DNA from: Tubulanus polymorphus
Lineage: Eukaryota > Nemertea > Palaeonemertea > Tubulaniformes > Tubulanidae
Length of the DNA: 64,000 nt
Assembly (NCBI RefSeq): GCF_964204645.1
Contig: NC_134028.1
Coordinates: 20,000,153-20,064,152, forward strand
Direction of reading: 5' to 3'
A program made the position numbers and the translations under genes. Under the pieces are notes generated by a model. That model was not told the DNA's origin, made no database searches, and worked only from the letters and a program-made list of their open reading frames with translations. The first letter of the stretch is position 1. Every line of letters begins with the position of its first letter. Positions 1 through 57,500 of this stretch are shown here, in pieces.

Positions 1-63
1 AATTACAGTACACATTCATTCATTATGTACATACATTTTATATGTTCTAGATTCAATTCCTAC

Positions 64-26700: not shown

Positions 26701-26879
26701 GGAACTATGTGACTGCAGAATTGGGTCTCAACCTGAAAAAGTTTTGAATTAAAAAGCTATTCGATATTGTGCATTTTCTGTATTCGCAGTTAAATCGACG
26801 AGAACTTGCTCAATTTGGTGAAAAAACTAATTACGCCAATTGTTGAGACAACTGGTGTTGAGACAAAATTATATTTTAA

Positions 26880-32977: not shown

Positions 32978-33019
32978 ATCATGGACTCTAAACGAATCAA
33001 TCGTTTTAGAGTCCATGAT
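32978..33019. repeat. Hairpin, 18-19-bp arms
   Basis: ATCATGGACTCTAAACGA, then ATCAA, then TCGTTTTAGAGTCCATGAT. The arms are complementary except for one extra A. Confidence 0.85.
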
Positions 33020-36137: not shown

Positions 36138-36175
36138 TACGAGCAATTATCTCATTAATGAGATAATTGCTCGTA
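36138..36175. repeat. Perfect 38-bp palindrome
   Basis: TACGAGCAATTATCTCATT followed directly by its exact complement, with no spacer. The flanks carry TCGGAT on both sides. Confidence 0.9.
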
Positions 36176-37762
36176 TGTCGGATGGATGGACATATTGGTG
36201 TGTACCGGTCAACAGTGTCTGTAATCAAAGATGCCATTTGATATCTGTCGAATTTCTATGAAAGAGTACAAACAGAAATATAAACCGGCCTATACAGGGT
36301 ACAAATCAGAAGTTAAAACTAGGACAATGGCTAATTTGCAAATAAATTGGCTCGAATCAGGGTCCGACTTTAATTGTTTTCATGGCTTACCAAAGAGCGC
36401 GCTGATTTTCATGTTCAAATTTATTTCACATTCAAATGCAAACCCATTCATTCGATACTAAACAATGCTTGAAGAGACTCTAAAACGAGTCCATACTTAA
36501 GCAAAGCGAAGTGACTGACTTCCAGAACCAGTTTAAATTAACACGCTCTAATTTGACTCGGCTTAATTTGATTCAGGTCTGGTCGGACTATTTGTTCGGG
36601 CAATTAGGCATGGGTCAATTTGGCGCCCATATCGTTTGTTGTTTGTTTTCGTCAGATCTCTCCGCCCTACCTTCAACTTATTTTTTATTATCCACGTATT
36701 TCAAATTCGATTTCTTCAACTTGTGTTTATTTTATACCCATGAAAAGCACACTGGTTACAATTTGCAGCAGTGCGCTATATAATGATGAGTAATATTGAT
36801 TATTAATATCAATATAAAATGTGAATTGGCAGTTGAAACATAATTGATTTGATCAACAATATAATTTGATGTAGACCTCCCAGCGTGAATCAATCAAGAA
36901 AAAAATTTAACTAGTCGTCTCAGATCAAAACAAGAAAAAGGAAGATGCATTCTAATAACTGATTGCGATGTGAAGACTATATTAGGCTCATTATTAGAAC
37001 CTGTACTACAGCTATTTAACTTTCTAAAATTATTTGTCGCAGACCCTCAAATACAGTGTATATTAACAATCAAATTGCCTAAATATGTCTGGTTTCGTCG
37101 CTACAGTATACTATTTATTAAAAACAATTACATCAATATCATTTATGTAGACCTATCATTCTAAAAGCTCAGGTTTTTAGCGTTAGAGGTTTGGACGAAT
37201 ATTTATCCCAAAGTCAATATTTCGAATATCAGACCTAGGTCCATTTTCCTTCGTTTGACAGTCGGATGAATATTCCTCCCGAAGTCGATACTTTGAATAT
37301 CAGAACTGAAGGTCAAATTCTCTTCGTTTGACCTTGGGAGGAATATTCCTCCCAAAGTCAATTATTTGAATATCAGACCCCTTGGTCAAGTTTCCATCGA
37401 TTGACTTTGGGAGGATTATTCCTCCCACAGTCAATTTTCACAATAGCGGTCCTCTTAATTGGTGATGATCAATGAACGTGCGGCTCATATTTCTATTGTG
37501 TGCCTATCCGGTGTAACGCGCGACACGCTTACATAATCTTATCTGTAAATGTGAAGACCTCGGGGGCATTATGTTCTCTAAAGCCCGACATTATCCCACA
37601 TTCGGGACTGTGAATGGGTTGATTTTACGGCTGAGTCGACATGTTTCAACAATTTTTAACTGTTCATTTTTGAATATTTGAAGACTTATGAACTAAAAAT
37701 TACTTAAATTTTTGATACATTTTGAGAAAGTCACAAAACATTTGAGACTGCGTTACCGGAGT

Positions 37763-38330
37763 TTTCGACCGGAATGTCATATACATGACATGAACGTAAA
37801 GGGCGGTGCTCACGTGATTTTAAAGGGGGGTACTTCATTGGGGTGTTAGATTATAATTCCAAATGCGTGATCGATCCACAAGTAGTTAATCTTATGCTCG
37901 ATTCAGGTAACATTCCATTATAATCAACGTAATCATTGAAACAAAATGAGAATCATACAATATTTCGGCTACTTTCTATACATAAAGGGTTAGTAACATA
38001 TATTAGGAGGATTTAATGGATATTAGGTAGTCACGGAATCGGTCTTTGACTGAAAAATGGCGCTGATCTCCTTGATAATCTGTATAACCACCTCGTCCAT
38101 AGATTAAGGGGTTAGGGGAAATTGGCTACCATCAAAAAACAAGCATTTCGCTCGAACGAAAAACGTGTCGTTCCCACGAGGAACTTTTCGTTAGAACGAA
38201 AAAAATGCCGTTCCCACGAAAACATTTCGTTCGAATGAAAAAGATTAACGAAATAATCTTGTAACACAATATGACGTTTGTCTAAATGATCGCTTGTTTG
38301 CTCGTGATGATCTAACGGGTGTGGATTCAA
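37763..38330. repeat. Duplicated non-coding block split by the LINE
   Basis: Inverse copy of 26920-27365, continued after the LINE at 43389. It contains CCCACGAAAACATTTCGTTCGA-type repeats at 38140-38250. No gene. Confidence 0.65.
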
Positions 38331-38769
38331 TATGGCGGGTGCTGGTTCTTGAAATTTCTAGTGCTGCTAAAAACTCCGATTCTCGTCTGTCAGCGGTTGG
38401 AAATACAGTACCAAACGCGGTCAGTAGCGAGAACTCATAGGATACTACTGTACAACCGTGTTTCAGCGTCGTGGAAATTGAGTATGTACATTATTTTCGA
38501 TCGTAAAAGTTGTCGCAAATTGCTATAAATTTGAGTACTGGTGATATATAACCTGTGCACGACCGGTGAACCGTCACGCTCGAAGGATTACAACCCGGAG
38601 TTTTGTGGTCTAACTGCGTAGTGTGTATTAACTCGTTGTGTAACACTTATTCGGCTGCTTGACGTGCGACTACAAAATGGAACGAAACAACCGATGCTCT
38701 GGTGATAAACCAGAATCAGACTTAGTATCAGATTTTGAATCTTTTATGTAAAGCTCAGTCGCTGACATC

Positions 38770-39993
38770 ATGAAGCGCTTGAATGATATTCAACTTGAGC
38801 AGAAACAAATGACCGATAGTTTCGATTCTTTGAAAACCACAGTTCGTGTCCATGATACTGACATAAGTAGTATTAATGAAAAACTACAAAACCAATCAAA
38901 AACTATCGACGAGCTCGCTGACTCGGTTCAATACACCAGCAAATCCTACGACGACCTTCAAAATGAAAATCAAAAGTTGATCTCAGACTTGAACTTCACA
39001 TCAGGGAAAGTAAACAGCCTCACCACAAGCCTTAAAGCCGCAAGGGCAGATATAAAAAAATTAGAAAGCCTCTGCATAGAGCTGCAGTGCCAAGTGAACT
39101 CAGGCCTCACTGCAAACTGCCCCGACCCACTAGACTGTGCAGAACTCTGCATTATCGTGAGCGACTTGAAGAAAGAATTCCAATCTGATCTCCAAAAAAC
39201 ATGCGAAGAAATGTTTGACTATCTTGGCCATAAACAAGCAATCACAGCTCACAAGCAATTGCCGATTAGAAATGGTCAGAGAAATCCGCTTGTAAAGGTC
39301 GCGTTGAAAACAAAAGCCATTAAAATCGATGTCTTGCGAAAGAAACATAATCTTAGAAAAAATCCTAAGTTCACTGATGTCTGGTTGAGATCAAGCCAAT
39401 CACATGCGGAACGTCTCAATGACATAAACTTCCGAAGAGTTCTAGATTTCATACCAGAAGCCAAGAAAGAACTTAAAATAGCGAGTAATGGGCGATTGAT
39501 AAGTCGCTCCGTGCCACATAGGCAACCGATAAACCGCAACGCGCCGGCTCAAAGAAACCGAACCCCAGCGACAGAGCCCGATGTCACCCCTGCCCGCGAT
39601 GAAAGTAATGATGAAAAAAACCGAACCCCAGCGACAGAGCCCGATGTAACCCCTTCCCGTGATGAAAGTACTTTTTCTGGTTTTACGTTTCGAGCTTCAC
39701 CTACCCTGCCACTTCAAGTTGCTGTTAATAATGATGCAACATCTGGTGCGAACGAAACAACCAGCCGCAAGGAATACGCCACACTGACCAACTCTACGAA
39801 ATCGCGCACCCGTAAAACCGTGCCTGCTGGAAATCGTAAACGGGATACCGTTAGACCCCCGGAAAAAAGAGCCAGAGTAGCGTCTGAACCTGAACAATCA
39901 TCAGTAAACGAAGCGCTCCGAGACGCCAGGTTCGTCTTGGATATGGACAGTGGATTACATCTATCCCAACCGCTAGCAACAGCTCCAGAATAG
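38770..39993 (+). CDS. LINE ORF1 protein (coiled-coil)
   Basis: 407 residues. The first ~110 are a heptad-rich coiled coil (MKRLNDIQLEQKQMTDSF ... LQNENQKLISDL ... ADIKKLESLC). Then comes a basic central part (KTKAIKIDVLRKKHNLRKNP, WLRSSQSHAERLNDINFRRV) likely to bind RNA. The tail is low-complexity with a 20-residue duplication (NRTPATEPDVTPARDES / NRTPATEPDVTPSRDES). No CCHC knuckle. This organisation is usual for ORF1 of CR1/L2-like elements, where it forms RNA-binding multimers. ORF1 ends in TAG, and ORF2 continues in the same frame. Confidence 0.8.
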   Translation: MKRLNDIQLEQKQMTDSFDSLKTTVRVHDTDISSINEKLQNQSKTIDELADSVQYTSKSYDDLQNENQKLISDLNFTSGKVNSLTTSLKAARADIKKLESLCIELQCQVNSGLTANCPDPLDCAELCIIVSDLKKEFQSDLQKTCEEMFDYLGHKQAITAHKQLPIRNGQRNPLVKVALKTKAIKIDVLRKKHNLRKNPKFTDVWLRSSQSHAERLNDINFRRVLDFIPEAKKELKIASNGRLISRSVPHRQPINRNAPAQRNRTPATEPDVTPARDESNDEKNRTPATEPDVTPSRDESTFSGFTFRASPTLPLQVAVNNDATSGANETTSRKEYATLTNSTKSRTRKTVPAGNRKRDTVRPPEKRARVASEPEQSSVNEALRDARFVLDMDSGLHLSQPLATAPE

Positions 39994-42186
39994 GATTGCG
40001 CCGAGCCAGGAGAAATTAGTATCCTGTGTCTGAATATTTGTGGTTTGAAATCTAGATCATATACTCTAGAGTTTGATAGTTTATGCAAGTCAGCTGATAT
40101 TTTAGTTTTTTCTGAAACCAAACTTGATGATTCCGATGAATTGTGGGTAAAAGAGTATTTTAAAAGTGTCGGTTACGAAGTAGTCATGAATAACAGATCA
40201 AATCTAGCTATAAGGAAATCTGGGGGAATCCTGGTTGCTTTTAAGCAAAGTCTAAACAGATATATTAAAACTATTCATAAATCAACCAATATCATTCAAT
40301 GGATTGAAATTGATAAGAGATTCCTAGGGTGGAAAAAACATTTGTTAATTGGAGGAGTATATATTCCCCCAGAAACTAGTAGATATGGAAATATTAACTT
40401 ATTCGATGAACTCGACACTGACGTTATAAACCGAATGAGTTCTACCGATGCTTATTTTTGTCTATGTGGCGATTTCAATGCCTACACAAAGCAGTTATTA
40501 GACTATTTACCCCATGACGAAATACTCATGGAATTCCTAGGCCTAGACGAAGTTTTTGTGGAAGATCGTCATAACCTTGATGCACTAAAAATACAAGGTC
40601 TACTCAATAGGAAAAACAAAGACTCCTCTATCAATAATTGGGGTTATCGTTTGTTAGACTTTTGTAAAAATCACAACATGTTCATTGCAAATGGCAGATT
40701 AGGTAGGGATAAAGGAATCGGTGAGTACACGTGCATCAAAGGGGAAAATAACCATGTTATTGATTACTTTATTATGTCTCCCTATTTGTTGTCAAAATGC
40801 GTGAACTTCAATGTAAACGACTATGACCAAATGATTTCAGACGTACACTGTGCTGTTACGTGTTCCTTCTCTATTTCACACACGAGAAGTCCATATACAA
40901 ATGTACAAAACATGCCTAACATACCAGGTAAAATTAAATGGAACAGTGGTCGAAGCGATGTTTTTAGAGAGGCAATCAACCAAACCGAATTGAATAAAAT
41001 AAATATCGAACTTCAAAATGATATAATAGACAGCGCCTGTGCGAATAAGCGTATATGCGACATTTTAAATAAGGCGGCAGGGGCCACAATGGGCCGAAGC
41101 CGGGTTAACTTTGACAAACCAAAAACTTTGTTACATGACTATAAAGTGAAACGAGACCGTAGAATTTATAGGAAAGCGAAAAGAAATTATAAAAGATATC
41201 GATCCGTCCAAAATAGAACTAATCTGAATTCGGCGTATAAGAGGTATAAAACATCGATAAAGATATCAAAACAAAAGAAAGTTAAATTGCACAATGACCA
41301 AATAGGAAAGTTAGCAAAAGACGATCCAAAAGCTTTTTGGAAATATTTCCGAAAGGAAAAACCAAATGAATGTAAAGCGTCGCTAGATGATTTATTTGAC
41401 CACTTTTCCGTCATTAACCAAAACCGTAGTGCAGAAAATGATAATCGTAATTTTTTCAATGTGAATGACTTCCTTCATGACCACAATGATGATGCACTTA
41501 ATAGGCTAATCACTGAGGGAGAAATATCTAAATGTATAAAATGCCTCAAAAATAATAAAGCCCCTGGAAACGACGAAATTTTAAACGAATTCCTCAAAAC
41601 TGCAGAGAATGAAATCATGCCTACCCTCGTTTTGTTGTTTAACAATATTTTGAAAACTGGCTGCATTCCGGAAGAGTGGGCTGTAGGTATTATCACTCCA
41701 ATCTTTAAGAATAAGGGAGACCCTTCCAATCCGGATAACTACAGAGGAATTACTCTATTAAGCTGTATGAGCAAATTGTTTACGAGCCTGATTAATAAAC
41801 GTTTAGAGGAGTTTTTGATGGATAACCAATTACTGAATGAAAATCAAGCTGGATTTCGAAAAAATCGTAGTATCATGGACCATATTTTCACATTGCATTC
41901 CCTTATAGATATTCTGACTAGTAATAAGCGGAAGCTTTACTGTATATTTATTGATTACCAAAAAGCATTCGATACAATATGGAGAAAAGCACTGTGGCAT
42001 AAATTAATTTTAACGGGAATTACAGGAAATATCCTCCGAGTGATTCATAACATGTATCAACATATTAAATCTAAGGTCAAGGTAAACGATCGATTATCAG
42101 AAAGCATAGATAGTCAAATTGGGTTACGTCAAGGGGAAAATCTGTCACCAGTGCTTTTCTCCATATTTGTCAATGACCTCGAGTAG
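39994..42186 (+). CDS. LINE ORF2: AP-endonuclease and reverse transcriptase, truncated
   Basis: Directly follows the ORF1 TAG in the same frame; the first Met is at 40045, but homology begins earlier (EISILCLNICGLKSRSYTLE). Endonuclease motifs: VFSETKLDD, GGVYIPPET, CLCGDFNAYT, YTCIKG...HVIDYF and SDVHCAVTC. Reverse transcriptase motifs: KNNKAPGNDEIL, FKNKGDPSNPDNYRGITLL, NQAGFRKNRSIMDHI, CIFIDYQKAFDTI and IGLRQGENLSPVLFSIFVND. It stops at TAG 42184-42186, where a deletion has removed the YADD segment. 42200-43054 holds the shifted C-terminal part. Confidence 0.88.
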   Translation, partial: DCAEPGEISILCLNICGLKSRSYTLEFDSLCKSADILVFSETKLDDSDELWVKEYFKSVGYEVVMNNRSNLAIRKSGGILVAFKQSLNRYIKTIHKSTNIIQWIEIDKRFLGWKKHLLIGGVYIPPETSRYGNINLFDELDTDVINRMSSTDAYFCLCGDFNAYTKQLLDYLPHDEILMEFLGLDEVFVEDRHNLDALKIQGLLNRKNKDSSINNWGYRLLDFCKNHNMFIANGRLGRDKGIGEYTCIKGENNHVIDYFIMSPYLLSKCVNFNVNDYDQMISDVHCAVTCSFSISHTRSPYTNVQNMPNIPGKIKWNSGRSDVFREAINQTELNKINIELQNDIIDSACANKRICDILNKAAGATMGRSRVNFDKPKTLLHDYKVKRDRRIYRKAKRNYKRYRSVQNRTNLNSAYKRYKTSIKISKQKKVKLHNDQIGKLAKDDPKAFWKYFRKEKPNECKASLDDLFDHFSVINQNRSAENDNRNFFNVNDFLHDHNDDALNRLITEGEISKCIKCLKNNKAPGNDEILNEFLKTAENEIMPTLVLLFNNILKTGCIPEEWAVGIITPIFKNKGDPSNPDNYRGITLLSCMSKLFTSLINKRLEEFLMDNQLLNENQAGFRKNRSIMDHIFTLHSLIDILTSNKRKLYCIFIDYQKAFDTIWRKALWHKLILTGITGNILRVIHNMYQHIKSKVKVNDRLSESIDSQIGLRQGENLSPVLFSIFVNDLE

Positions 42187-42199
42187 CATTGGGGTAGCC

Positions 42200-43060
42200 T
42201 TGGATACAGTATCTGACTTTAGATATTTGGGAGTACACTTTAATTATACTGGAAATTTCGCTTAATGCAAAAAAGATATCTGTGACCAAGCAAAAAAAGC
42301 ACTATTTTTTGTTCTTAAAAAAGTACAGCAATACTCCCTAACTATAGACATTGCATTTAAAATTTTTGATGCAATGGTGGGATCGATCCTTACCTTTGGT
42401 AGTGAAATATGGGGTTTCTCGAACTTAGATGCAATCGAGAAAATACACCTAATGTTCTGCAAATACTTATTGAAATTGAAACGTGCAACTCCAAATGCTA
42501 TGGTTTATGGAGAATTAGGTCGTTTTCCTTTTGAAATACAAATAAAAGTCAGAATGGTTAAGTTTTGGGGACATCTGATCACAGAGAGCAACACTCATTC
42601 TAGTAAAATGTATCGTATCCTAATAAAAAATCATGTAAATGGTAAGACCAGTAAATGGATCACTTGTATTCAGTCTATCTTAGAAAACTGTGGTCTAGGT
42701 TACATTTGGTACGAACAATCTTTCCCGAATATCCGGTATTTATCAGAAACTGTTAAATTATGTTTACAAGATCAATTCAAACAGAAATGGCACCAGACTA
42801 TCGCAGCTTCAACAAAACTAGATACCTATAGCATTATTAAGCCGAATTGGGGGCGGGAAGTATGTTCATTAGCACTACCATTTGACCTCAGGACAAATGT
42901 AATACGGTTTCGTTGCTCTAATCATAATCTACCGATTGAAACAAGAAGATATGAAAATATCCCCCGAAATGAACGACTTTGTACCAAATGTAACCTAGGG
43001 CAAATCGGCGACGAATACCATTTTATAATGGAGTGTACTTTTTCGAAAGTTTAAGAAGTC
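42200..43060 (+). pseudogene. LINE ORF2 C-terminal remnant
   Basis: Resumes after the deletion as GVALDTVSDFRYLGVHFNYT. After a stop and frame change it continues KKALFFVLKKVQQYSL, TFGSEIWGF, TPNAMVYGELGRFPF, WITCIQSILENCGLGY, RFRCSNHNLPIETRRYE, and RLCTKCNLGQIGDEYHF, then IMECTF. It aligns block for block with the second LINE copy. Confidence 0.85.
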
Positions 43061-43388
43061 GGTACATACCGCAACAAATAGTAACGTTTCCTAATATAAG
43101 AAAATTTATGAACCTTTTTACGTCAGAAAACCCAAACGTCCTAAGGAATCTTGCAGTTTTTATAAAAAAGGCACATAGCCTTATCTAGCCTCACCTCATC
43201 GCTGTTCCTGGTATACACGAACTTTTCAAAATAACTTTTCAATTGTAAATATAACTAGTTATTGTATGACTAGCAACTGTTATTGTATAACTGCAAACTG
43301 TTTATTTTGTATGTATCCTGTGCTCGCAAAAAATGTACAATTTTCTGGAGCAATAAATTTAAATCTAATCTAATCTAATCTAATCTAA

Positions 43389-43875
43389 AACCGTGCTAGC
43401 GTTAGGGACAAGTGAACTGTGTGAACTCAAATATCAGCGTTTAAACATAATTTTGTCTCAACACCGTCCGGGGCTTAGTCAGACGGTACCCCTAGACTGC
43501 CTCAGTCCCTCCCGTTTTTGCAATTTTTAATCATGCAGATTTTCGGCAAATTCAAAATGTGGCAGAAACTTCTAGACATGACTTGTATTGTTTCCTATAG
43601 AGAGGGGATTTGATTAAACCTATCATTGTCATCTAATTGATACGAATAATTAATGGTGGATTTGAATATAACCTAGGTACAATATATATAACTGAGGTAC
43701 ATACAAAGTTGCTATCCCACCAGATGGCCTGACGAGCAGTAGGTTTCCGCTGTCAAAATAAGTTCATTTTCAATCTTTGAACTAAATTTTAGACTCCCTA
43801 ATCCATATGTTATCACAGCGCCCATCAAATATATAAAACTTTCATTCTTCAAATTGAACGACTTCTCATAGTCAT
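43389..43875. repeat. Duplicated non-coding block after the LINE
   Basis: 43390-43440 continues the interrupted block of 37.8-38.3 kb; 43430-43680 is a direct copy of 28310-28570. From about 43690 the sequence is unassigned up to the second LINE. Confidence 0.6.
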
Positions 43876-45198
43876 ATTGGTCTCAAGCAGGGAGATAATC
43901 TATCCCCACTACTTTTTAGTCTATATGTAAACGACCTTGAAAACTTTCTATTGAGTAAAGGCTGTCAAAGTGTATGTATTGATAATAATGATGAGGTAAA
44001 TTTCTGGTTGAGACTTTTAGTGCTTTTGTATGCAGACGATACCCTTATTTTATCTGACTCGATGGAAGGCCTACAATTAGCACTTGATTCTTTGTCTGAA
44101 TATTGTGACCTATGGAAATTGAAAATCAACCCAGCAAAGACTAAAATACTAATAATCCAAAAAAGAAAAACAAGATTAAAACCAACTTTTTTTATACACC
44201 AACATGAAGTCGAAGTTGTTGACGAATTTGTCTACTTAGGAATATTATTTAATTACACTGGTACATTTGCAAAATGTCGAAAGAAAATTGGGGAAAGTGC
44301 AAATAAAGCTCTATTTTTTGTCTTGAAAAAGGTCCAACAGTACTCTTTAGATACAGACGTAGGTTTAGAACTTTTTGATGCTATGGTCGAACCAATCCTT
44401 ACGTATGCATGTGAAATATGGGGTTACGAATCAACTGCTATTTTAGAGAAATACCACCAGCGTTTTTGTAAATATTTACTACATCTAAACCGGTCTACCC
44501 CAAATTATATGGTCTATGGTGAATTAGGTAGAACCCCGCTTGCGAAAATCATCAAGAGTAAAATGGTTAAGTTCTGGGCAAAGCTTTTATGGAATGATGT
44601 ATCGACATTATCGGGTCAAATGTATAAAATGCTTTTTAATATGCACTTGCTCCATGGAAAAACAACCAAGTGGTTAAGTTATATAAAATGCACCCTAGAA
44701 GAGTGTGGTTTAATGAACTACTGGGTAAATCACGAGCGAGTTAATCCTGAACTTATTGGTGAATTGATCAAACAGCGTCTTCAAGACCAATTTACTCAAA
44801 AATGGAGGGCCGATTGCCGTAACAGCTCAAAAGGACTAATGTATTCTATGATCAAAACTGAACTAAAGTTCGAACCATATTTGCATGACCTCCCTATTTC
44901 ATTGCGACGCACATTGTGCCGGTTTAGATGTAGTAATCACAATCTACCGATTGAAACCGGTAGATATAGTAATACACCTCAAAACCAGAGATTTTGTTTA
45001 AAATGCAACCAAAATGTAATTGGAAATGAATATCACTTTTTATTTGAATGTCCAGAATATACAATTCTAAGATCACAGTGCTTACCACAATTCTGTTTAA
45101 CAAGACCTAGTCATTATAAACTGATAACCCTTTTCAATTCCCCAAAAAATACTCTTGTCAAATTATGTAAGTTTCTGAAGCAGCCTTTGAACCTTTGA
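43876..45198 (+). mobile_element. Second LINE copy, 5'-truncated, reverse transcriptase C-terminal part
   Basis: Begins within the reverse transcriptase (IGLKQGDNLSPLLFSLYVND) and stays open to a TAA-type stop at 45198. It includes the catalytic LLYADDTLILSDS, thumb (KINPAKTKILIIQKRK), VDEFVYLGILFNYTG, TYACEIWGYES and YMVYGELGRTPLAK. A Cys/His block RFCLKCNQNVIGNEYHF-LFECPEY lies near the C terminus. It is clearly diverged from the first copy, so it belongs to a related subfamily. It lacks the 5' half and the (TCTAA)n tail. Confidence 0.88.
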
Positions 45199-45209
45199 TA
45201 TATATATGA

Positions 45210-45535
45210 GGTCGCCATGTTCATTTTTGATCCGCCGCTCTGATTGGCTGAAATTAGTTGTGGAGTCGGCAACTCATCGCAGAAACACGCACATCGACGA
45301 CGACGAGTCGGCGACTGGTTCCGTCGCGTCGTAGAAGTAGAACATGTTCAACTCCTGCGATTCAGTCGCCGATCGTGAAAAACTGTCGCACGACAGTCGT
45401 ATAGCTAGACTCAGATCGACTAGAATCGGCGACGAAAATCGTGCGACGATCGGCAGTAGTCGCCGGAAAACCAGTCGCCGATCAGTTGAGTCGCGTCGGA
45501 AGGTCGATCTGAGCCCCCTTTTATACGTGTGACGC
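45210..45535. repeat. GC-rich inverted AGTCGCCGAT repeats
   Basis: Many copies of AGTCGCCGATC and its complement GATCGGCGACT in both orientations. The 12060-12310 stretch, with ACTGGC/GTCGCA motifs, is similar in style. Likely a MITE-type fold-back; the open frames here are not credible genes. Confidence 0.45.
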
Positions 45536-46088
45536 AAGCATAAACGCAGGTTGTCTGATAATAGCGACACTGGCCATGAACTCCAGTTTCCGTACATTAC
45601 TTGTTGCTATAGTTTAACCACTGAAATAACTGAAGCTCAATAATATTCCTGAAAGCCCATAAATATAATTCATGAAAGCCGCATAATAGATCCAGTTCTG
45701 GACCTACTTCTACAGTTTTTGACCAAGTTCCACACTTCTAGACTTGTTTCTAGGATCCATTTACACTGTCCTGGACAAAGTACCTAAGTTCAGTTGAATT
45801 TGACTCAAGAGTTAAAATGAGTTTATCTTTTATGGGTTTAGTTAAAATGAGTTTATTATCAATAATTTTGACTCTTTTGTGGAATTGTGGATCGAAAATG
45901 TAAAACCTCCATCGTCCTTCAAATTTCCAGCAATATACAGTAGAAAAACAGATGCAGACAGATTAAACAAAGCAGAAATAATCGAATCTCGATCCTGTAA
46001 ATAGTTGGTATTAGATCTACTGAGTGGGATGTTTAATGTGAAGCCGTTCAGCAACTTCTGATCAAATATTATTCAGCCCAAAATATGT

Positions 46089-46095
46089 ATAAAAC
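46089..46095 (+). promoter_or_regulatory. TATA box of copy C
   Basis: TATAAAA in ATGTATAAAACTCGCATGAT, about 200 bp upstream of the ATG. The likely 5' UTR exon ends at 46172 before GTAAGATC. Confidence 0.55.
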
Positions 46096-46289
46096 TCGCA
46101 TGATTCAATCGACAACTGAAACATTCGTCAGTCGCTTTGATATCACGTTAAATCTCAACACACATTAAACAGGTAAGATCACTCATGATATCTGTAGTTC
46201 TGAAACAGCCGGGGACCAGTCTCCAGTTCTGACACTGCCGGAAACCAGTCTCTATTTCTATGATCTGATTACAGTTTTCCGGAGACAAC

Positions 46290-46821
46290 ATGAAATTGAT
46301 CAGTTTTTTGGTGGTTTTTCTGGCGGTTTTCTGGGTTTCAACCGATGCCATTGATGAAAGCACATGTCGCAAGGTAAACATCTGTCTATAAAGAGAAAAC
46401 GCTGTATAGTCAAAAAGCGTTTTTTCAATCCTATCACGTGTGTTAATCCATCGCAGCTACACTCACTATAACCTCTTAATATTCTTATAATCTCAGTATT
46501 GTATTTAAAGGGCTTTCCGGGAAATAGCAGTTTCAATTATGTGTTTGGTTTCATCGACAGGTATCATCTCTTGCTGTCGAACATTACGGCAAGGCCATAT
46601 CGGGACCACTGAGCAAATTAGATTGCGAAACTATCGTCAACAGCAAGATCTTGGACGATCTAAAGTTAAAAGGTTCACAACTACCTAGCGTTTTGGCGAA
46701 AGTATTTCAGTCAAAACAAGGCAAATCGCTGATTATCGATTACGTAAGAAAAAATGCCAAAGATCTAAGAAACAATTTGAAATCTCTGAAAAATGCATTG
46801 AAAAAAAATAAAGAAAACTAG
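46290..46821 (+). CDS. Small secreted protein, unassigned family, copy C (intact)
   Basis: Two coding exons, 46290-46373 and 46561-46821, plus a non-coding first exon ending at 46172 (acceptor GATTACAG before 46275). 114 residues. The signal peptide MKLISFLVVFLAVFWVSTDA is followed by a mature chain of about 94 residues beginning IDESTCRKVSSLAVEHYGKA, then ISGPLSKLDCETIVNSK. It ends in a lysine-rich, probably helical tail (KDLRNNLKSLKNALKKNKEN). Two cysteines could form one disulfide. All signals are intact: TATA box (46089), both introns, and poly(A) signal AATAAA at 46953-46958. I do not recognise the family. A small basic secreted protein could be an antimicrobial, mucus or signalling factor, but nothing in the sequence decides this. 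Confidence 0.78.
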
Positions 46822-47164
46822 AAAAAGTATTTAGAAATGATGGATAATTTGACCGGCATCGCATTATACTAGAAGATGTATGTTCTAATTCTGTAGGTTT
46901 CGCGTTTCCTTGTTCTATACGATTCAAATTTGTATCAGTGCTTGAAAATACAAATAAATAATTCTTTTAGCATTAGAAATGAATTTAGTGATGTATTGAT
47001 TTCATTGACGATTCGCAGTTTACAGTTCTCCAGAAAGGGGTGTGCGGATATTACTTACAAGTACCCGGGAACCTCTTAGCAGGTGATACTTACGAGCTTC
47101 CAGTTGTTTCAGACGGTGTCCAATACATAGGACAAGTTTATATTGCCGTAACGCCACCTAGCAT

Positions 47165-47400
47165 GTAATAAGAAGAGTTTTTCGTCCCAGCAGCTAGTAC
47201 CACTGTAACCCTAGTGGTTCTTAAGAGACGGCCAAGGCCTTTTTATAGGTTGTTAAGGCTCACAACCTGACAGAGTTACCAGAGCTGAGTCCATGCATGT
47301 GTCTCGACAGCCAACGCCAGGTGGTTTCGATCTAGGGACCTCTTGGTTCCCAGTCCTCCACTCAAACAACTGCATGAGACCCCAATCCCAACAATAACAA
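47165..47400 (-). repeat. tRNA-derived SINE-like element
   Basis: The minus strand has an A-box-like TGTTTGAGTGG followed about 30 nt later by the B-box match GATCGAAACC, then a conserved-looking body (GTCAGGTTGTGAGCC, AAGGCCTTGGCCGTCTC). This is the head-and-body plan of a tRNA-derived SINE. No poly(A) or other tail defined. Confidence 0.45.
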
Positions 47401-49092
47401 GTAATTCGGTTCATCTGGATAAGAAAAAAACAAATTAAGCAGTTTAGAAACGCCAGAAAAAAAGATATGACTTTCAACTTGACATGTTCAGTAAGAGAGC
47501 TGATACCTGTAGGTGTGACCGATGTGTGGGCGTGTCTTCCAGCTGTCGCTAACAGCTGTGTCTGGCTGTACGGCAACGAACGCCATTTTTTACATTCTTG
47601 TTCGCTGAGATATTTCTGACAGACGAGTGAATTAAACCTGAAGGCGTCCGGCCGGTATTAAATACTGTGACAGTGGTTTCTCTTTTGAGACGAGGTTTAA
47701 CTGAGCCCGACTGTAAATCAACTGTTATAAAATCTCCCACAAAGCAATGCGAACGGGAAATAAGTCTGAAAATCGAATTACCTATAAACAATATCGATAT
47801 CAACTCGCAAAACACTCAAATATGAAAATCTTTTCCTAGTTTCATCTTTCACGTCAAACATCGAAGCCATATCGAACGGGAGATTATTGTTCTGTCGCGT
47901 GCAATAGACATGCGCAATGGAACATACCGTAAACGGTTCGAATCCAATCATCTGAGGATTCCTCGGAAGTTTCCAATCCCGAATATAGACTTCCTACAAC
48001 AACTTTCCAAGTTCTGTCCATCCCATGTAAATAGTTTTCCTCGGGATTTTATGGGTTTTAGAATTATTCTTTAACCATTTTTGTTATCAATCCCATACCC
48101 TCGGCCAATCAAAATTAACGGCTTAACTATTTTGCAGATATACATTTCATTTTTACAATATAATAATAGGCGTACTAGCAAAGTAGATAGAGTGATAATT
48201 GAAAATGCCATTTAAAATAGGTAGAATTTCCCCCAATCTGTTCCAGGAGTCAACTTTGTCAAAAGCCGCCATCTTTTGTGTCCCGGACTTGTAGCCGCCG
48301 ATAATTGACCAGCTCCTGGCGCCACCTTTATCATCTTCGCCGTCGTTCCACCAAAAGGCAAGAAGTCAGGAATGTTGACCAGTGACCAGTCAGGTATGGC
48401 GTGAAATGTGGTGAAAATTAATGAATTGAGTCAGATCTCTGATGTTACACAGTTTACTCACTATGCGCTACAGGCATTTACTTTATTGAGTACAGATTAT
48501 ATAATCAGCATTTCAAATGAAAATTTTACAAATGAAATACATTTGTATTTTGAAGAACATCAACCAAATACTGGTAATTTACAGATCGATTATATGAAAT
48601 ACATTATAATTGGAAAGCATCAACCAAATACTGGTAATTAACCGATTGATGATATATAAGTGTTTTGGTGCAACTAAAAGATCTATTGATTGATTTCGTG
48701 TGTCAGTAATTCATGAATCCTATCACATGTACATTATAACTAGATCTGTGTTCAGTTGGTTCTTTTAGTCTACGAGAGGTAAACTGACTGGGTTGGTTGT
48801 GATTATTAGCGGCACATGCTAATTGGTCGGTATCTACGCCTTACAATAGAATAAGCGATTACGATACTTTGACAGTAACTGTTTGTAACTCTAAGCGAAA
48901 CTGCGTCTTGCATTTTGTTTCGCTGTCGCATCCGAAATTTGGATGGTAACACGAGATCAGCGTTCTCAATACACATCTATCCGAAAGTGTTTTGTAATTT
49001 TGCGGGTATAGCTTTGCTCTTCGTCGGGTACTATAATTTCCTATTCTTTTCACTGAGAAACACAGCTCTTTTGAAGGACGATTAACTATGAA
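47401..49092. other. Intergenic, no gene recognised
   Basis: Includes a short direct duplication at 48530-48650 (CATCAACCAAATACTGGTAATT twice, about 70 bp apart). Short open frames occur on both strands, but I see no domain, splice-supported exon or RNA gene. Confidence 0.4.
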
Positions 49093-49269
49093 ATGGACCC
49101 GCGCCATTTACATCCGTCGTTATTTCGATGTCTTAGTTTGATCGCATCCATGAAGAAAATTGATTTCAGAAAAATCCGTTTAAAATGTTGCAAACTCTGC
49201 ACCCTCTGTATTCTGATTGCTATTGTGGTAGTCAACTATAAACGTTATCGAGTGATGATGAACCAGGTT
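49093..49269 (+). CDS. Possible first exon or small membrane protein
   Basis: A 58-residue open frame with a short basic N-terminal segment, then RKIRLKCCKLCTLCILIAIVVVNYKRYR, one predicted transmembrane helix with basic flanks. This is the layout of type II membrane enzymes. CAG|GTTTGA at the end could be a donor instead of a stop codon. No downstream exon was found, so this may be spurious. Confidence 0.25.
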
Positions 49270-49323
49270 TGAAAATAAATAGTCAGCCTAAAAAGCAACC
49301 TAACTTTCAGTCTCGAATTTCAC

Positions 49324-50346
49324 TTATCTAGAAAACAACCAAACACCGGAAACAACCATAACGAATATTATCATATCTATACTATAGATGGGAGCGCTAT
49401 TGCATTCGTCGGTGGTGCAGCATTTCGGTTCAACAGACTTAGTGCTGTTTGGTAGAGGATATTCGCTTTTACAATTTTTGAAACAGCCCCGAATAAACAC
49501 TGAACTTTCGTATTGCAATTTCTGAAATGAAACGAACAGTAACGAATTCTGAAACCGATGAACGTATCAACGAAATTCACCGGGGTGATTACTGTAAATC
49601 ATTACTTACCCCGCACTGATAACCGCGGCTGAGGGGACACGTTGTGCTATGAACATCATCGCTGGTTTCACAGCCGTCGGTAAAATATGACCGTTTTCCG
49701 ATGTCGTTTGTGTTGTTTCTTTTCAAAAGAACTGAAACAGATGAAACAAATTAACTGTCGGGGGGCTCAACAGATTAGGCACGAATGACGCCAGTAAGTT
49801 TGTTTTTAAGTTGGGCGTCGTTATTTTGTCTCCGCTTGTTAGGAAGATGCGTCACAAGACTGCATTGAAAATGTCTACATCTATATTGATTTCGATTAAA
49901 AAATGCGAATAAAGATAAACTTACTACTGTCAATAGCAAATTGTTTCATCGCATCATATACTGCCTTATAACCGTCTTTATGATATTCACAATCGTAGCA
50001 TCTCATTACAGTTGCTGTCACTGAAAATAAGGATAACTGAGATTTAGAAAAAATTAGATGAAATACTTACCGTCAATAGCGAACTGTTTCATTGTATTAT
50101 ATTCTGCCTTATAACGGCTTTTATACACACGAGAGTGGCATGTCAGACTTTAAACAACTGTTGTCGAAAACGAAGATGATATGAGATGAAATAAAAAAAA
50201 CAATTGAGATGAAATGAGTTTTTACGAATTAAGCTGCATTTGAAGTGGACAGTATATTGTGGGGCTGGCTAAAATACAAACTCACCCTGAGCAAACAGAA
50301 CCAGTAAAGCTGTCGCGACCGTAAACATAATCTGTAACTGATTCAT
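49324..50346 (-). CDS. Ly6/uPAR three-finger protein, GPI-anchored
   Basis: Four exons on the minus strand: 50286-50346, 49925-50020, 49610-49731, 49324-49521; 158 residues with continuous phase. Exon 1 is a signal peptide (MNQLQIMFTVATALLVLFAQ). The LU domain starts MRCYDCEY and has ten cysteines (C-x2-C, then Cys in TDGCETS, TTCPLS, YQCG, RGCFKNCK). It closes with KCCTTDECN, the diagnostic CCxxDxCN motif. The C terminus is a hydrophobic segment (IDMIIFVMVVSGVWLFS) with no cytosolic tail, as expected for replacement by a GPI anchor. Such proteins act at the cell surface as receptor modulators or adhesion factors; the partner is unknown. A CATAAAA at 50416-50422 is a candidate TATA box. A degraded copy of exon 2 lies in intron 1. 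Confidence 0.85.
50080..50155 (-). pseudogene. Partial duplicate of Ly6 exon 2
   Basis: The minus strand reads YKAEYNTMKQFAIDG before a GTAAGTATT donor, matching the end of exon 2 (YKAVYDAMKQFAIDS). The first half, with the CYDC cysteines, is degraded, so the copy probably is not used. Confidence 0.6.
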
Positions 50347-50415
50347 CCTGCTATGTTCCGTCTGTCGTCTGTCACTTGTAGACCTGCTGTCGTCTGTCAA
50401 CATGGGTTTGCGCTG

Positions 50416-50422
50416 TTTTATG
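50416..50422 (-). promoter_or_regulatory. TATA-like site of Ly6 gene
   Basis: CATAAAA on the minus strand (GCGCCATAAAACAGCGC), about 70 nt upstream of the ATG at 50346. Confidence 0.35.
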
Positions 50423-53270
50423 GCGCTCTCTTCCCCCGGACACCATTTGGGCTTCGCAAAATATGTTTCTTTGAAATATGTTTCTTTATTCTTTGAAATT
50501 GGTCATTTAGAAATAAATGAAATTTCAGATTTGTTATCATTATCTTTTTTGGTAACAATTTGAGATCAATTGTAGCGAGAACAATAAAAGTTTAATTTAC
50601 CAAAGCAATTTTAGATTTAAAGAGAAAATTCCATAAACTGCACTACTCCTTATTGAAATTTAGAATAAAATATCCCCGCTGATTAAAAGGCAAAAATCTG
50701 TAATACATGAAAAAGTTAAAACGATTTTCTTTTCGTTCGACTGAAAAAAAAATTGATAGGACTCCTTGAAGATATTCTTGAAAATTAGCCTTTGAAGATA
50801 TAGATTTTTACCATTCGTCAAATTGAAATCTATATGTAATTTGATGATCTTGAATATTTTCTTCTTTGCACAACAGGATAAGATAATTCCATTTTTCTAC
50901 AAAGATTTAATCGTTGAAATGAATATATATATATATATTGGATTCAAACGTCGTGCAAGATTTAATTTGATTTCGTTGAGTCAGTAAACTAACTGTAGGA
51001 GTGCAAATAGGGAAATAAACTGAATGAAAAAAGTAAGATAAGTGTTCAAAAGAAACTATGCAGAACTTCAATAAGAAAATTACGGACTGTGAAAAGATCT
51101 CCATAGATATAAATATTATTGACCAACAACTGTAGAGATCTGAACACGAGTGTGTTCTGTGCCTATGTTGACTTCAAAATTAAAGCATTGATTCCATTTG
51201 TTTTCGAATAATTCAGCAGAGGAAATAAGTTGACGAAGAATACGTAGCAGTGTGGCCCCTACAAAAAATATTTGCCCTTCACGGGCAGTCCGACGATTGG
51301 TGTCACTATCATCCGAGTATCGAGTGGAAAAAAGCTTTGTGACATAAGATTGCACTAGCACGGCGGACAAAAGATAAAGATTACCTACTTGCCCTGGTGA
51401 GAATATACTTGTCCCGGGCAATCGGACAAGTGCTTAGATCGGACCCTGAAGTCGCTGGAGACAAAAATCGAGCAAGTTTTTCCGATTATTAACTAAATAT
51501 TCAGTGAAATCTGTAACATACACTGAGTGAGAAAAGGAATCGTATATCTATTCGATGCCTCGTTTGATAAATGTCGGGCACGGAAGCCTAAAAATCAACT
51601 AACTTTCATTGAAAATGAACTGATTTTCACTACGAATGACCCAATGTTTTTATGCGCCATCTGTTAGTGCCAGTGTCCCATTATTCTTTAGTGATCAGGG
51701 GCTTATCAATCACGTCGAATAGCCCAAACTGTTCAGGCGTGGAGAGAGGGGATGGCATTTTTATGTTCTCTTTATGTCCATGGACTATCTGGCCTGGTAA
51801 AAAGTTGCTTGGTCATTGTTAATTGCGCTTACGGTGCAGGAGGGAGTCACGAACGCTTAAAAACTCACAATCAATGATAAACAGCATTCCGGGAAATGTA
51901 TTCTTATCATAATCGGTGCGGAGCAGAATACAAATGGGAATAGTGTATATTTATGAAATCTATTTTGTATCTTATGGTGATATTTAGGGGTTAAGACCCC
52001 CTAATCAGTGGTATACTCCTGACCTAAAGGATGTATCGAACAAATCCTTACAGTGATGAATTGAAACTCTGCCCCGGATCGAAACCCTGCCATGGTGGGC
52101 ACATCCAACCTGTCAATATGTGATGGTGCGCACTAGACGCGGTACAAACAGCTATTAGTTTGTATGAAAAGTACCCCGTATAGACGGTTGAAGCGTTTTC
52201 ACACTAGATGAAAAACATATTCATTCAATTCCCTGTGTACTTAGTCGGATGTCTCAATTCAATTCTAGTTTTTCACTTATCATAATTATTAGATTGGTTT
52301 TCAATGTATAAACTATTCACGGAGATGTCTGTAGGTTGTTACGTATATTCTTAATATACATTTTATTTAATTTCAGTTAAAAAACCTCGAATAAAATCTC
52401 GTGGAATCCCTAGAAACTAGATCTCATAAGGCGTTATGTTGTTTATTTCATTGCTAGGGCTCTGTGTGATAACTGTGGTCAGTTTTTAACCTAAAAGACT
52501 TCATGAATCAAAGCAATTGGAGATATTACTAATTAAATCCTCAAGATGTTTATCAGATTTTAACACTAAACTAATGCAACAACGGTCCACGTAGTCTTGA
52601 CACATGAATCGCATAATACGCGAGTGCCTATAATGGGTGATATGAAATTCTACCCAAATATCAGAGATGTCTAATGGGTTATATTTATATGCTATTTTTC
52701 AACTTCGATAGGCTCCTTCTAGTTAGTTACCTAATCGTTGGTGGTAAGCTTTTTATAATCGGATGGGCTTATACCAACGTTAGGGATGACAAGGGCCAAA
52801 ACACGTTTGAAAAAAGTAACACTTCCAAAATATACTTTCTATTGAGTTCAGTCCACAATTAATGGCTTAAATCATAAACTAACACAGGTACCTTTTGAAA
52901 TAATCCAATATTATGTATGTTTCGAGCGATTAATCAACATTATTTCGAGAAATTAATTAATTTCTCCACAAATTTCGCCATTGGCCGCCATTTCTCTGTA
53001 TTGCATACATGTGGCATGATAGACTAGGTGACCTACAAGGATTTATATAAAACTTTCAAACGCTACGACAATTTTTATTTTTGTTAGTTTTCCAACTAAT
53101 ATTTCAAATCTTCGTGTTTTCCATAATAGATAATGAAAAAATAAATTCTGGTTGAAAAAATTTGAATTAGTGTTGATTTCTTAATTTTTTCAATTTCGTC
53201 GTTTCATTTCGTTAGTTTGTGTTATTGTGCTGGCCTCAGTACACAGGTGCCAGCACCCTCCATACGTTTT
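50423..53270. other. Intergenic, no gene recognised
   Basis: AT-rich sequence with only short open frames and a small (AT)n tract at about 50927-50938. No splice-supported coding exon or structural RNA seen. Confidence 0.4.
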
Positions 53271-53274
53271 CAAA

Positions 53275-53339
53275 ATGGCCGCCGTCGAATCGTTTACTCT
53301 CACTTTACGGCCGATTTTCACATGGATTAAGATCGTCAG
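53275..53339 (+). CDS. Possible orphan first exon
   Basis: AAAATGGCCGCCG is a good start context, followed by 21 codons (MAAVESFTLTLRPIFTWIKI then V) and a strong donor CAG|GTGAGG. I found no matching second exon before the convergent polycystin-like gene, so the gene is undefined. Could be chance. Confidence 0.25.
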
Positions 53340-53479
53340 GTGAGGTGTTGTAGGTATCAAACAAACTACGAATCTGTTGTGCGTTGATTACAACAAAAAT
53401 TAGACGGATATCTTAAGAGACAATGAAATGCCAGGCAAATTACTCAAAAAAATTTCATTGAAAAATGACCTTCCCATTC

Positions 53480-53568
53480 CTGACTGTGGTTTGTGAAAAC
53501 AGGGAGGTGGGAGTTCACTCCCACCTCCCTTGTGAAAATATCCGATCGTGAAACTAAACCACAGTCAG
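53480..53568. repeat. Nested hairpin, MITE-like
   Basis: The outer arms CTGACTGTGGTTT (53480-53492) and AAACCACAGTCAG (53556-53568) are exact complements. Inside them GGGAGGTGGGAGT (53502-53514) pairs with ACTCCCACCTCCC (53517-53529) across a 2-nt loop. Confidence 0.85.
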
Positions 53569-54402
53569 GTTACTGACTAGGCTCCTTCTTACTCGATATC
53601 GCTCAACCAGTTAGCCGGGGCGAACCTTGCCTTGTGTTTGTTGGACGATACAAATAAAAATACTCAATTGCTTTATAAGACCCTACTCGATAGAACAAAA
53701 AATTCGATGATATATTCTTTGAAAATGGTTAAATTATCTCATCATCCATGGTAAATTAAAATTCGACCTGGTATTCAATTGTGGATACATGAATCTTTAT
53801 GAACTATTCATAAGAGGCAAAAACAATGATATAATTCAGTTGTTGTATCGTCGGACGAATATTGATCGATTTAGCCCGATTCTAACGTGGAAAATCAAAT
53901 TCCAACATATTAAATTTCATGCATTTATTTCGAGAAGAAGCAAATTTTAAGAATACATTGCAATGAAAAATTAGTCATTGAGAATTGTAGATTGCATAAA
54001 TTATGAAAATATTTACACGACTCAAGAGCGATCAATAATCAAAACAGATTTTTAACGGATATGGACTCATACCGGTCCACTTAGAGCAAAAAAAACACTC
54101 AAGTTCAATGCAAATATAATGTTAATGGAAGGTAAAGTATGTTTTGTAAATGATTCGGGCCTCTTACACTACTGTCCGTTGTAGTGACTGACTGAGTATA
54201 ACGGCCGAGTCGGAGCCTTCTCAACGGATCCCTTCACACTACCATCCTGTAGCGAGTGACTGAGTCGAGGATCAGTCGAGTTATTGGATATCTCAGGTCA
54301 ACTTCACTTCATGGTTTTCGAGCAATGCAAATAGAATTATTATCAACATAATGTGCAGTAATTCAAACGAGACTTTAAGAAATGTCTTAAATCTTTCAGC
54401 GT
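53569..54402. other. 3' flank of polycystin-like gene, no gene recognised
   Basis: Probably includes the 3' UTR of the minus-strand gene. A repeated GTAGTGACTGACTGAGT / GTAGCGAGTGACTGAGT motif occurs at 54180-54270. A minus-strand AATAAA-like site lies near 53922. Confidence 0.4.
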
Positions 54403-54581
54403 TTAACTGATGATGATATTTCGTTTTTTAGATTTTTCCGACGACTTCTTCATTTCCTCCAGTTCGGCCATTACGTCTTTGCTGTCGGCTTGTTTTTTAA
54501 TGTAGTTCTCCAGCCTGTCGATGATCAAATCGACTCGGTTCGAAAGCTCGCGGCACTTCTCATCCGCGCTGTCTTGGGCTC
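54403..54581 (-). CDS. Last exon: cytosolic coiled-coil tail
   Basis: Acceptor CGGTTTACAG before 54581, stop TAA at 54403-54405. It encodes EGAQDSADEKCRELSNRVD, then LIIDRLENYIKKQADSKDVM and AELEEMKKSSEKSKKRNIII. The heptad pattern predicts a coiled coil, the part through which polycystin-1 proteins usually pair with polycystin-2. Confidence 0.85.
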
Positions 54582-57500
54582 CTGTAAACCGAACACATCA
54601 AATCCACATATACCTCAGTGTAAGGAGGAAGATCAACGGATATTTGGATGTTGTTTGAGGTTGAAAAACAGCAGAAACTGTTTATCAAATTCAAAGGATA
54701 TTCTGAAAAAAACTATGCAAGGAATCTGTGAGGGAAATGTATAAACATTCAGTTCATGAGGATAAGTTGCGTTGAAAATTAGATTATAAACTGAAATTTG
54801 TAGAATTGGTCATTATACTACTTTTGGTATAAATAACGAGACGAGTAGTAACTATATAGGTTATCTATTAATTTGACGCACAAGCTTTCGCTACTTAGCA
54901 TAGAAGCTTCATCAGGTGAATGAGAATGAATTGAATACTTTTGGTATATACGTATACGAATGTTGCATGTATTTGTTTACATTTTACGTATATTTACTGA
55001 TTTTAATAACTGGGGAATATTTCTTTTATATTTCACCAAGCTTCTCGAGGAATTAAACAACCTATAGTATAGGTATTTCGAAGCTAGTTCCTCGAGCGAA
55101 TAATTGATTGGTGAGACTCCATATATAAATAAAACCCACAACCGATAATCTAGGTTCTAGTCAAATTAGTTCAAGAACTGTGAAACTAGTCTCGAATAAA
55201 GCCAATCTGCAAATGTACTGTAGAACTTAAATCCTGTCTTACAAACACAAAATAACAAACCCAATTTCGCAAACAGCCGCGGAACGTGAAAAATTTGGGT
55301 TTATCGTTTGATTGTTATAGTTTTATTAATGTTGATGATATGCTATAAAGATTATACCATATATCAAGCTAGCATTATGTAGATAAATGTATCCAAGAAA
55401 TAAATAGATTAGTTTACCTTCCAAATATTCCAACCGGCATTCTGTGGGATTCCCTTCTATTCTAGTCATACCGATGGCTTTTTTGAGTGACTGCATCATA
55501 AAATCAACAATTTCATACTCGTTCGCTTGTCCAGCTATGCAATCCATCGCGTACGTGTAGCCCTCCAAAATGATCGCAACCATGAAGTTAACCATCATGA
55601 AATTTACGATGATAACGAATGCCACGAACATTAGCGGAGCCATCACGGGACTGACTGCCTGCATTCGTCGGAAATTGAATTTATCTAGAATGGAGGTATA
55701 TACTAGATTGAAACGTTATACAACTTAAATAATTTGGGCGTGAGAATGGTCGATTCGGAAACCTCAAAATGGACCCCCCTCCCCGTCACTTAAGCGCAAC
55801 GTACACGACGCGGTGAAACACAGAAACAGGAAGCACGTGTTTCCCGTGTTTCTCTGTTGTATTTCCCTTTTGTGTTTCAAGCCCAATACATACGACAAAC
55901 GAAAACACGTTTGACCTCGGAAACATCTTTTCCCGAAACAATGTTTATCGTTTCTTGTAAACGCTAGTGATCGAGAGAAACGCCCAGAAACACGTTTCTA
56001 TCACCTGTTTTCCCAGTGCTGCGTTCGTTGGGCTTTAATAGAGACCGAATGGGTGACACCCAAATCCGTAACGTCCGGATGGAACCCTCTGAACCTATAT
56101 CCCTATAGTAGAACATCATTCAGTGAGATCCTAGTAATAACACTTACTTAACATCATGTTCAATAATGTCTCCATACTAGCTATGAACGTTGAATATTCT
56201 CTTAAACGGACCATGAACTTCAGGTGACACAAACTAACAAATCCGAAAAACAGAACTAAGAACACGACCATAAATCGCATTAGTGGCCAGGACAACCACT
56301 TCATCATCAAGGCCAGGGCGCAAATTCTTTTGTTAAATCGCAGGAGTTTCAGCCCTTGAAGTGTCGATAGGAATACGATCATTGCGAGTAAATAAACCGA
56401 CAACTGTAAATATAGACAGATCTCTTTTAACATTATACAAACAGATAACAATCACAAACGTTACATAGTTTATCATTTCCTCATTTCGTTAGTTTTATTC
56501 TGTGAAAATTACCTCGTCGTACAAAACGACATAGTCAAGATTTATGAATTTGGTCCTGTCCACCATCATTTCAGCCATCGCGTACGCCCCGAAGAATCTC
56601 ACTATTTGCATGAATATGGCCACAAATCCCATGAGAATCACCGCAAACTCGTAAACATCCCAAAATGACTGTAAAGAAAACGAACTTGAACGTTTATTGA
56701 CGCCTTAAAATAACGCATATATTGCCTTAAATATTGTCGACAACAAATAATTCGTTATAAATTATACAATATCAATGATCAAGAAAGTTATTTCGGATTT
56801 TAATATATCGATTATTGAATTGAATTGACTGGCAACCAGTCTAACACCGATTTATTGATGACTTAGTCCGCATCTTCAAAAAACTATTTATTGAAATTTA
56901 TCAAAAATAAAATGAGAATCATGAAACATATCTAATCAGAAAGGAATTCCAAAATTCACAGTTTTAATTGTTATTTTGCAACGCCAATATTGATGACGTA
57001 GTACACATCGACTCAAAACAGAACGCCTTGTATAACGCAATCATATAAACATTATTGTAAAGGTTTTGACGGCGTCAAAAGCCAGATAACGAATAGTTAG
57101 ATAGTGAGTTATTCGAAAAAAAAGAAATTCAGTCAAATCCGATGCAAAAAATTTCGTCTCCGTTCTAATCTTCATATGTTCACGCATTTTATACTTACAT
57201 TAAAATATTGACGTCGACCGATTTTCCGCAGTCTCTTCGAAGCGCGCACCGCGAAGTAGATTAAGAACCCGAGAAAAATGAATTGGAAAAAGAACATCAC
57301 TGAGTTCGTCGGTGTCATTCCTTTCTCCAGGCGCATTACTGTCACTTTATACTTTGTAAACGCCCCTGAATTGAGAGCACGATTCTGAATCAAACAATTG
57401 CATCAAGTGATATGGATTTTTTAATTGGGAATACAATTGGTTTTTTTCGATATTTGTTCATCTCAACACGTTTTCAACGGGCTTCGTGATATGGTGGCTA

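Follow-up and report, generated by a model that had tools for sequence, protein, structure and literature searches.

An expanding family of small secreted-protein genes, very probably functional and without a recognised relative, in the nemertean Tubulanus polymorphus

What is a small gene that encodes a putative secreted protein, has relatives close by and matches no known family: is it a working member of an expanding family, and if so, in what role? The question is raised by a window of 64,000 nucleotides of the Tubulanus polymorphus genome (C4:20000153-20064152), the whole stretch of DNA analysed here, in which an earlier note had described three copies of such a gene, called A, B and C. 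We take copy C and its relatives to be, very probably, a functional and expanding orphan family of secreted proteins. The joint reading, in which the family is functional and expanding and also has an effector role, falls a little short of an even chance, and the effector role considered by itself is a shade more tentative still.

Copy C and its relatives

All coordinates of copy C were verified. It is a two-exon gene for 114 residues at window positions 46290-46821, with its ATG at 46290, and the TATA box, 5' UTR intron, coding intron and poly(A) signal are present where they had been placed.

46088-46094, plus strand: TATA box TATAAAA (string search)
46173-46274, plus strand: 5' UTR intron of 102 bases (GTAAG...TTACAG)
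46290-46373, plus strand: coding exon 1, with the signal peptide and the first mature residues including Cys26 (translation)
46374-46560, plus strand: coding intron, phase 0, 187 bases (GTAAAC...CGACAG), with splice sites conserved across copies
46561-46821, plus strand: coding exon 2, with 86 mature residues, Cys50, a lysine-rich C terminus and the TAG stop (translation)
46953-46958, plus strand: poly(A) signal AATAAA (string search)

The signal peptide has the hydrophobic core SFLVVFLAVFWV, with T and A at -3 and -1 of the likely cleavage site, which was placed after residue 20 by eye from the -3/-1 rule rather than by a predictor. The mature part of about 94 residues contains 16 lysines and has a net charge of +9, and the two cysteines reported for the protein are those at positions 26 and 50. 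Most shuffles are less amphipathic than its basic C-terminal stretch, whose hydrophobic moment is matched by 134 of 5000. This C terminus had also been called helical. An AlphaFold2 model built on the exon 2 sequences of C and A does consist entirely of helices, but its mean pLDDT of 49.8 (pTM 0.28) is a confidence too low for use.

Judged from sequence comparison, the structure of copy C is not a product of chance, because the two-exon layout with its phase-0 intron recurs in the 13 intact members among 14 copies of the C type. TATAAAA is found in seven of the eight C-type copies with at least 200 bases of upstream sequence; the eighth, L016, has upstream sequence that looks unrelated in alignment. 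The same box occurs in two D-type copies and one E-type copy, those with enough upstream sequence. Apart from L016, every modelled copy of the C, D, E or A type with enough upstream sequence has the donor motif of the 5' UTR intron; in the 260 bases upstream of three paralogues on contig C10 it was not found in its exact form. The D, E and A types have a coding intron of 366-416 bases, of which that of C seems, by alignment, to be a version shortened by deletion.

The statement that copy C matches no known family holds for the libraries searched, since neither copy C nor a profile of the family has a convincing match in Pfam or the PDB. Pfam-A at the curated cut-off returned no family for copy C, and seven representatives gave eight weak matches, none with E below 0.02 and none shared by more than two of the seven members; no antimicrobial family was among the Pfam matches of copy C or of these representatives. 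Against PDB sequences, the best E was 0.16 for copy C as query and 0.15 for the profile of the family. Prokaryote genomes and viral contigs yielded no confirmed relatives (one scan used signal-peptide patterns only), which is expected for an animal gene and so says nothing on lineage restriction. Text searches of the literature, which do not work by sequence, found no paper that we recognised as describing the family. The family is new to these libraries, which is not proof of novelty, as it may still be described elsewhere.

Local expansion had been proposed from the window, and the whole genome bears this out on a scale far larger than is visible there. A single protein search of 267.8 Mb in 77 contigs gave 101 exon-level matches, merging into 59 loci, a lower bound as all our locus counts are. 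Within 0.85 Mb, at C4:19.855-20.704 Mb, lie 51 of the 59; the others are at C4:21.06 Mb (one) and on contigs C61 (three), C10 (three) and C8 (one). A second genome search with a C10 paralogue as query gave 53 matches and one new place, a match to the repeat tail. Orientation divides the C-type copies of the cluster: the five at 19.88-20.11 Mb all have the plus orientation, the eight at 20.46-20.70 Mb all the minus. Retained haplotypes or mis-assembly could account for some of the copy number; each half of the cluster taken alone holds several C-type copies.

The count of three copies in the window stands for C, which is intact, and for A, which is open, but B is a pseudogene.

24714-25450, minus strand: copy A, an open two-exon relative of 109 residues (exon 1 at 25450-25367, exon 2 at 24959-24714)
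29748-30292, plus strand: copy B, a pseudogene in which the donor GT is lost and exon 2 is without its 5' part

The lesion of B is identical in the other three B copies read (L020, L027 and L051). Copy A has lost Cys26 and has another cysteine at position 36, and its TATA box reads TACAAAA.

The sub-families were described from the sequence of all 14 C-type copies and of some members of each other type. Thirteen C-type copies are intact at 114 residues; in the remaining one, on C61, the start is lost and the frame ends early. The D type occupies eight places, with a stop at the normal end in the three exon 2 sequences read (L010, L011 and L036) and a model of 113 residues for L036. Five places are of the E type, about 66% identical; L011 and L037 have 113 residues and L039 a shorter frame of 100. 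The A type, about 50% identical, accounts for nine places. Its window copy, L020 and L042 have 109 residues, the exon-1 frame is broken in L009 and L027, and no exon 1 was seen in the stretch examined for L041. Cys26 is missing from all three 109-residue models, and TACAAAA stands in all three A-type copies with enough upstream sequence. The lost cysteine, the altered box and the two broken frames are signs that A-type copies are decaying. Smaller types, read in part, comprise three places at about 64% and three where a short part matches at 82%; a further seven, likely pseudogenes, retain only the 3' part of exon 2. The F and G types on C10 are longer (168-190 residues) and end in a C-terminal acidic repeat of the VDNSAES type. 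In every intact model of the family the phase-0 intron is kept.

A lysine-rich character did not survive as a family trait. Net charge is +9 in C, +7 in D, -1 in E, +13 in A, +4 in F and 0 in G, a range within which no single cationic mechanism suits all members. For the same variation between sub-families, we rejected the lysine-rich character as the key to function.

In L029, L030 and L031 (C10:3.01, 3.05 and 3.84 Mb) the coding sequence continues into 21-base repeats of the VDNSAES type, and the cluster copies seem, by eye, to have a single VDNSAES-like stretch in their 3' UTR. In L010 (C4:19.863 Mb, minus strand), exon 1 is tandemly doubled before one D-type exon 2, at 3065-3214 and 3689-3853, and the exon 1 copy nearer to exon 2 has a shifted start.

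Conservation within the C type and change between types

Among the 13 intact C-type copies (the C61 copy being excluded), exon 2 has a mean pairwise divergence of 0.0057, compared with 0.0192 for exon 1, 0.0263 for the coding intron and 0.0221 for the 3' UTR; the 5' intron, compared in 12 copies, gives 0.0231. The mature exon is thus about four-fold less divergent than the introns. Exon 2 has 8 variable sites among 258, and the three non-coding parts together have 31 among 418 (Fisher p = 0.013, in a test that treats sites as independent), and pooled dN/dS over the 78 C-type pairs is 0.26. These sequence comparisons suggest that the mature protein of C is probably under purifying selection, the alternative being gene conversion restricted to exon 2. 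Copy C is probably functional because 13 of the 14 copies are intact and because the mature exon is less divergent than the introns.

Change between types was followed with codon models on six representatives, one each of C, D, E, A, F and G. Omega of the mature exon is 1.14, not different from 1 (lnL -1160.90 versus -1161.12 at omega 1), and that of the signal exon is 0.46, not significantly below 1 (lnL -222.67 versus -224.25). Site models gave no significant positive selection among these representatives (M2a versus M1a, -1159.83 versus -1160.89; 2 delta lnL about 2.1), and an omega near 1 in the mature exon also fits relaxed constraint.

Non-coding sequence gives a second scale. In five of the six pairs among C, D, E and A, exon 2 exceeds non-coding divergence, with odds ratios of 1.40-2.04 and one-sided p of 0.00005-0.051 in pairwise tests that are not independent and whose p values are uncorrected. 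Pairs involving C leave out the coding intron, because that of C is a deleted form. In the sixth pair, C-D, exon 2 is less divergent than non-coding sequence (odds ratio 0.51), because its N-terminal half is near-identical, silent sites included: silent changes number 1.0 of 35 in this half and 5.5 of 23 in the C-terminal half. Exon 2 of this pair looks like a gene-conversion mosaic, near-identical in its first half (46561-46720 versus L036) and not in its second. Divergence in the promoter and the 5' UTR exon is among the lowest of all parts (JC 0.07-0.14).

Exon 2 has undergone at least 210 changes over the tree of the six representatives, and none of them is a stop. Since 3.7-4.8% of random exon-2 changes would give a stop, the chance of finding none is about 2e-4 at 4% and 2e-5 at 5%, in a test that is biased toward constraint, as the representatives were picked as intact and broken members exist.

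Possible roles of the family

In the model that we prefer, the family would grow and die by segmental duplication, in birth-and-death evolution. The signal peptide appears to be kept in sub-families C, D, E, A, F and G, and the promoter region and 5' UTR intron appear to be kept too in C, D, E and A, while between sub-families the mature exon appears to change about as fast as the neighbouring non-coding sequence, or faster. The shared promoter may lead to co-expression into one secretion route, and the mature domain may be a compact helical, cysteine-bearing extracellular effector that acts on a moving target. Microbes, competitors, prey or predators would be the favoured target, as for an antimicrobial or toxin-like secretion, and copy number would give dose where the sub-families would give variety. 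Among roles we favour such a secretion first, a structural one second and a reproductive one third.

Two known systems help to place this model. Cationic amphipathic antimicrobial proteins have a signal peptide and a basic C-terminal stretch with a high hydrophobic moment, and copy C resembles them in its signal peptide and its basic amphipathic C terminus. The family departs from them in that net positive charge is not conserved. Conotoxin mature peptides are short and disulfide-rich, and unlike such cysteine-rich peptides the mature part of copy C has 94 residues and two cysteines. According to the available excerpts of one account (PMC3862624), conotoxin superfamilies have multi-exon precursor genes whose introns are conserved within the superfamily, and the mature-peptide exon takes most of the point mutations and trinucleotide indels. 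As far as these excerpts go, any likeness would be one of evolution only: a conserved signal peptide and introns beside a hypervariable mature exon are seen in part, with an omega of 0.46 for the signal exon and 1.14 for the mature exon and with exon 2 above non-coding divergence in five of six pairs, but positive selection is not significant.

The alternative that survives best, though we consider it somewhat unlikely, is a secreted structural or housekeeping protein of mucus, cuticle, tube or egg coat, or a lipid carrier, which would have been amplified for dosage while its sub-families drift under weak constraint. High copy number together with strong conservation of C suits dosage, an omega near 1 and not significantly above it suits drift, and the acidic VDNSAES repeats of the C10 paralogues are of a design that we take to be one of matrix proteins. 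Against this, in five of the six pairs change in the mature exon tends to run ahead of that in the introns and UTR of the same genes, and a kept signal peptide and promoter are not predicted by weak constraint alone.

Less probable again is a reproductive protein, that is, a gamete or seminal-fluid factor shaped by mating conflict or species recognition in the manner of abalone lysin, which is secreted, helical and fast-evolving. Members of the family are small and secreted, are basic in C, D and A, have a fast-changing mature part and are tandemly amplified, and copy C is like lysin in being basic and secreted. However, the sequence searches of PDB chains, among which lysin structures are presumably present, gave no match to a lysin, and the E and G sub-families are not basic but acidic or neutral. 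In the excerpts available (PMC9265791), lysin itself is described as non-enzymatic; it has highly basic residues and acts on the egg coat.

The preferred model, an expanding family of secreted effectors, has some general interest. Local multiplication with a kept promoter and signal peptide and a changing mature part is a proposed origin of many venoms, antimicrobial secretions and gamete proteins. Here one genome offers near-identical C copies, the older D, E and A types, an unlinked outgroup on C10 and broken copies. With these together, the birth of such a family, its gene conversion, its diversification and its decay could be dated and tested directly. If the protein were made in a gland, in immune tissue or in the gonad, it would be a new effector without a relative in the libraries searched.

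The duplicons and their neighbouring genes

The small genes are carried within large duplicons. A comparison limited to matches of at least 600 bases shows 99.0% identity between window 45520-54873 and 20103930-20113271, and again 99.0% between window 24417-29251 and 19963594-19968424. Some duplicons further include a GPCR and a polycystin-1-like gene that has REJ, PKD and polycystin domains.

53-7473, minus strand: REJ- and PKD-bearing 5' part of a polycystin-1-like gene, duplicated together with the small genes in some of the cluster
16805-17512, plus strand: co-duplicated GPCR fragment (7tm_1 below cut-off, 7TM_GPCR_Srw above)
31095-45519, no strand: interval from B to C, about 14.4 kb here and about 1.6 kb in two neighbouring duplicons, as judged from matches of at least 600 bases
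55326-62989, minus strand: 3' part of a second polycystin-1-like gene (Polycystin_dom, with PKD_channel just below cut-off)

The interval from B to C contains open frames of a non-LTR retrotransposon, of which 39994-42186 has Exo_endo_phos and RVT_1 domains; by eye, the open frame at 43858-45198 resembles a reverse transcriptase. The non-LTR open frames upstream of C, at 38752-45198, apparently come from more than one element. The 5' part of the polycystin-1-like gene with REJ and PKD domains has two copies, one in the window (53-7473, minus strand) and one at C4:20071483-20079152.

The polycystin domain has six near-identical copies, five in the cluster and one on C61, against 14 C-type loci, so the small genes multiply also without a polycystin neighbour. 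This count bears on a reading that we regard as very doubtful, in which the family is decaying, most copies are passive passengers of polycystin-1-like segmental duplications and no copy is used. Such a history would suit the broken copy B, the decaying A, the seven places with only the 3' part of exon 2 and the large neighbours carried in the duplicons, yet it sits badly with the conservation of the mature exon of C relative to its own introns, with zero stops in 210 changes among intact representatives and with the 14 to 6 ratio itself. That the whole family consists of pseudogenes was rejected for C by its conserved mature exon and the absence of stops.

The polycystin-1-like neighbours also invite comparison with the s-Themis/v-Themis system of Ciona. 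There, in the excerpts available (PMC7018956, PMC9265791), a variable egg-coat gene is closely linked to a REJ-bearing polycystin-1-like gene, and a sperm polycystin-1-like receptor pairs with the linked egg-coat ligand (PMC7018956). In the same partial account, v-Themis is fibrinogen-like and its gene lies inside the first intron of the polycystin-1-like gene (PMC7018956). To the extent of these excerpts, the likeness is that C, a changing secreted-protein gene, lies near REJ-polycystin-1-like genes. Unlike v-Themis, copy C is without a fibrinogen-like domain (no Pfam match), and judging by the exons found it lies between two polycystin-1-like genes and not inside one. Between polycystin copies, dN/dS is about 0.15 for the REJ exon and about 0.98 for an N-terminal open frame at 4918-5550, a candidate exon with 91.5% protein identity. 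The polycystin frame at 60953-61516 gives a ratio of about 1 as well, based on 9 changes, so the N-terminal value does not stand out and lends little.

It is highly improbable that the 0.85-Mb cluster is a recognition locus of the Themis kind, with C and its relatives as fast-changing ligands and the co-amplified REJ-polycystin-1-like proteins as receptors: the REJ/PKD genes in the same duplicons and the N-terminal dN/dS of about 0.98 against 0.15 for the REJ exon would fit, but C is neither fibrinogen-like nor inside the receptor's first intron, the copy numbers of the small genes and the polycystins do not match, and the pairing is kept only as a bold case because no polycystin-domain match lies within about 1.9 Mb of the unlinked C10 paralogues (with one exon as query). 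If true, such a locus would follow the logic of the ascidian Themis pairs independently of them, and its ligand would be unrelated to theirs.

An Rfam search of the window gave no match. The GPCR fragment at 16805-17512 has five copies including that of the window, 94-100% identical, in and beside the cluster, and the GPCR-related set is very large genome-wide (859 first-look candidates, of which 150 were scored). At window 9807-11870 lies a 31-base tandem repeat of 66.5 copies, and the several long open frames within it probably do not represent genes.
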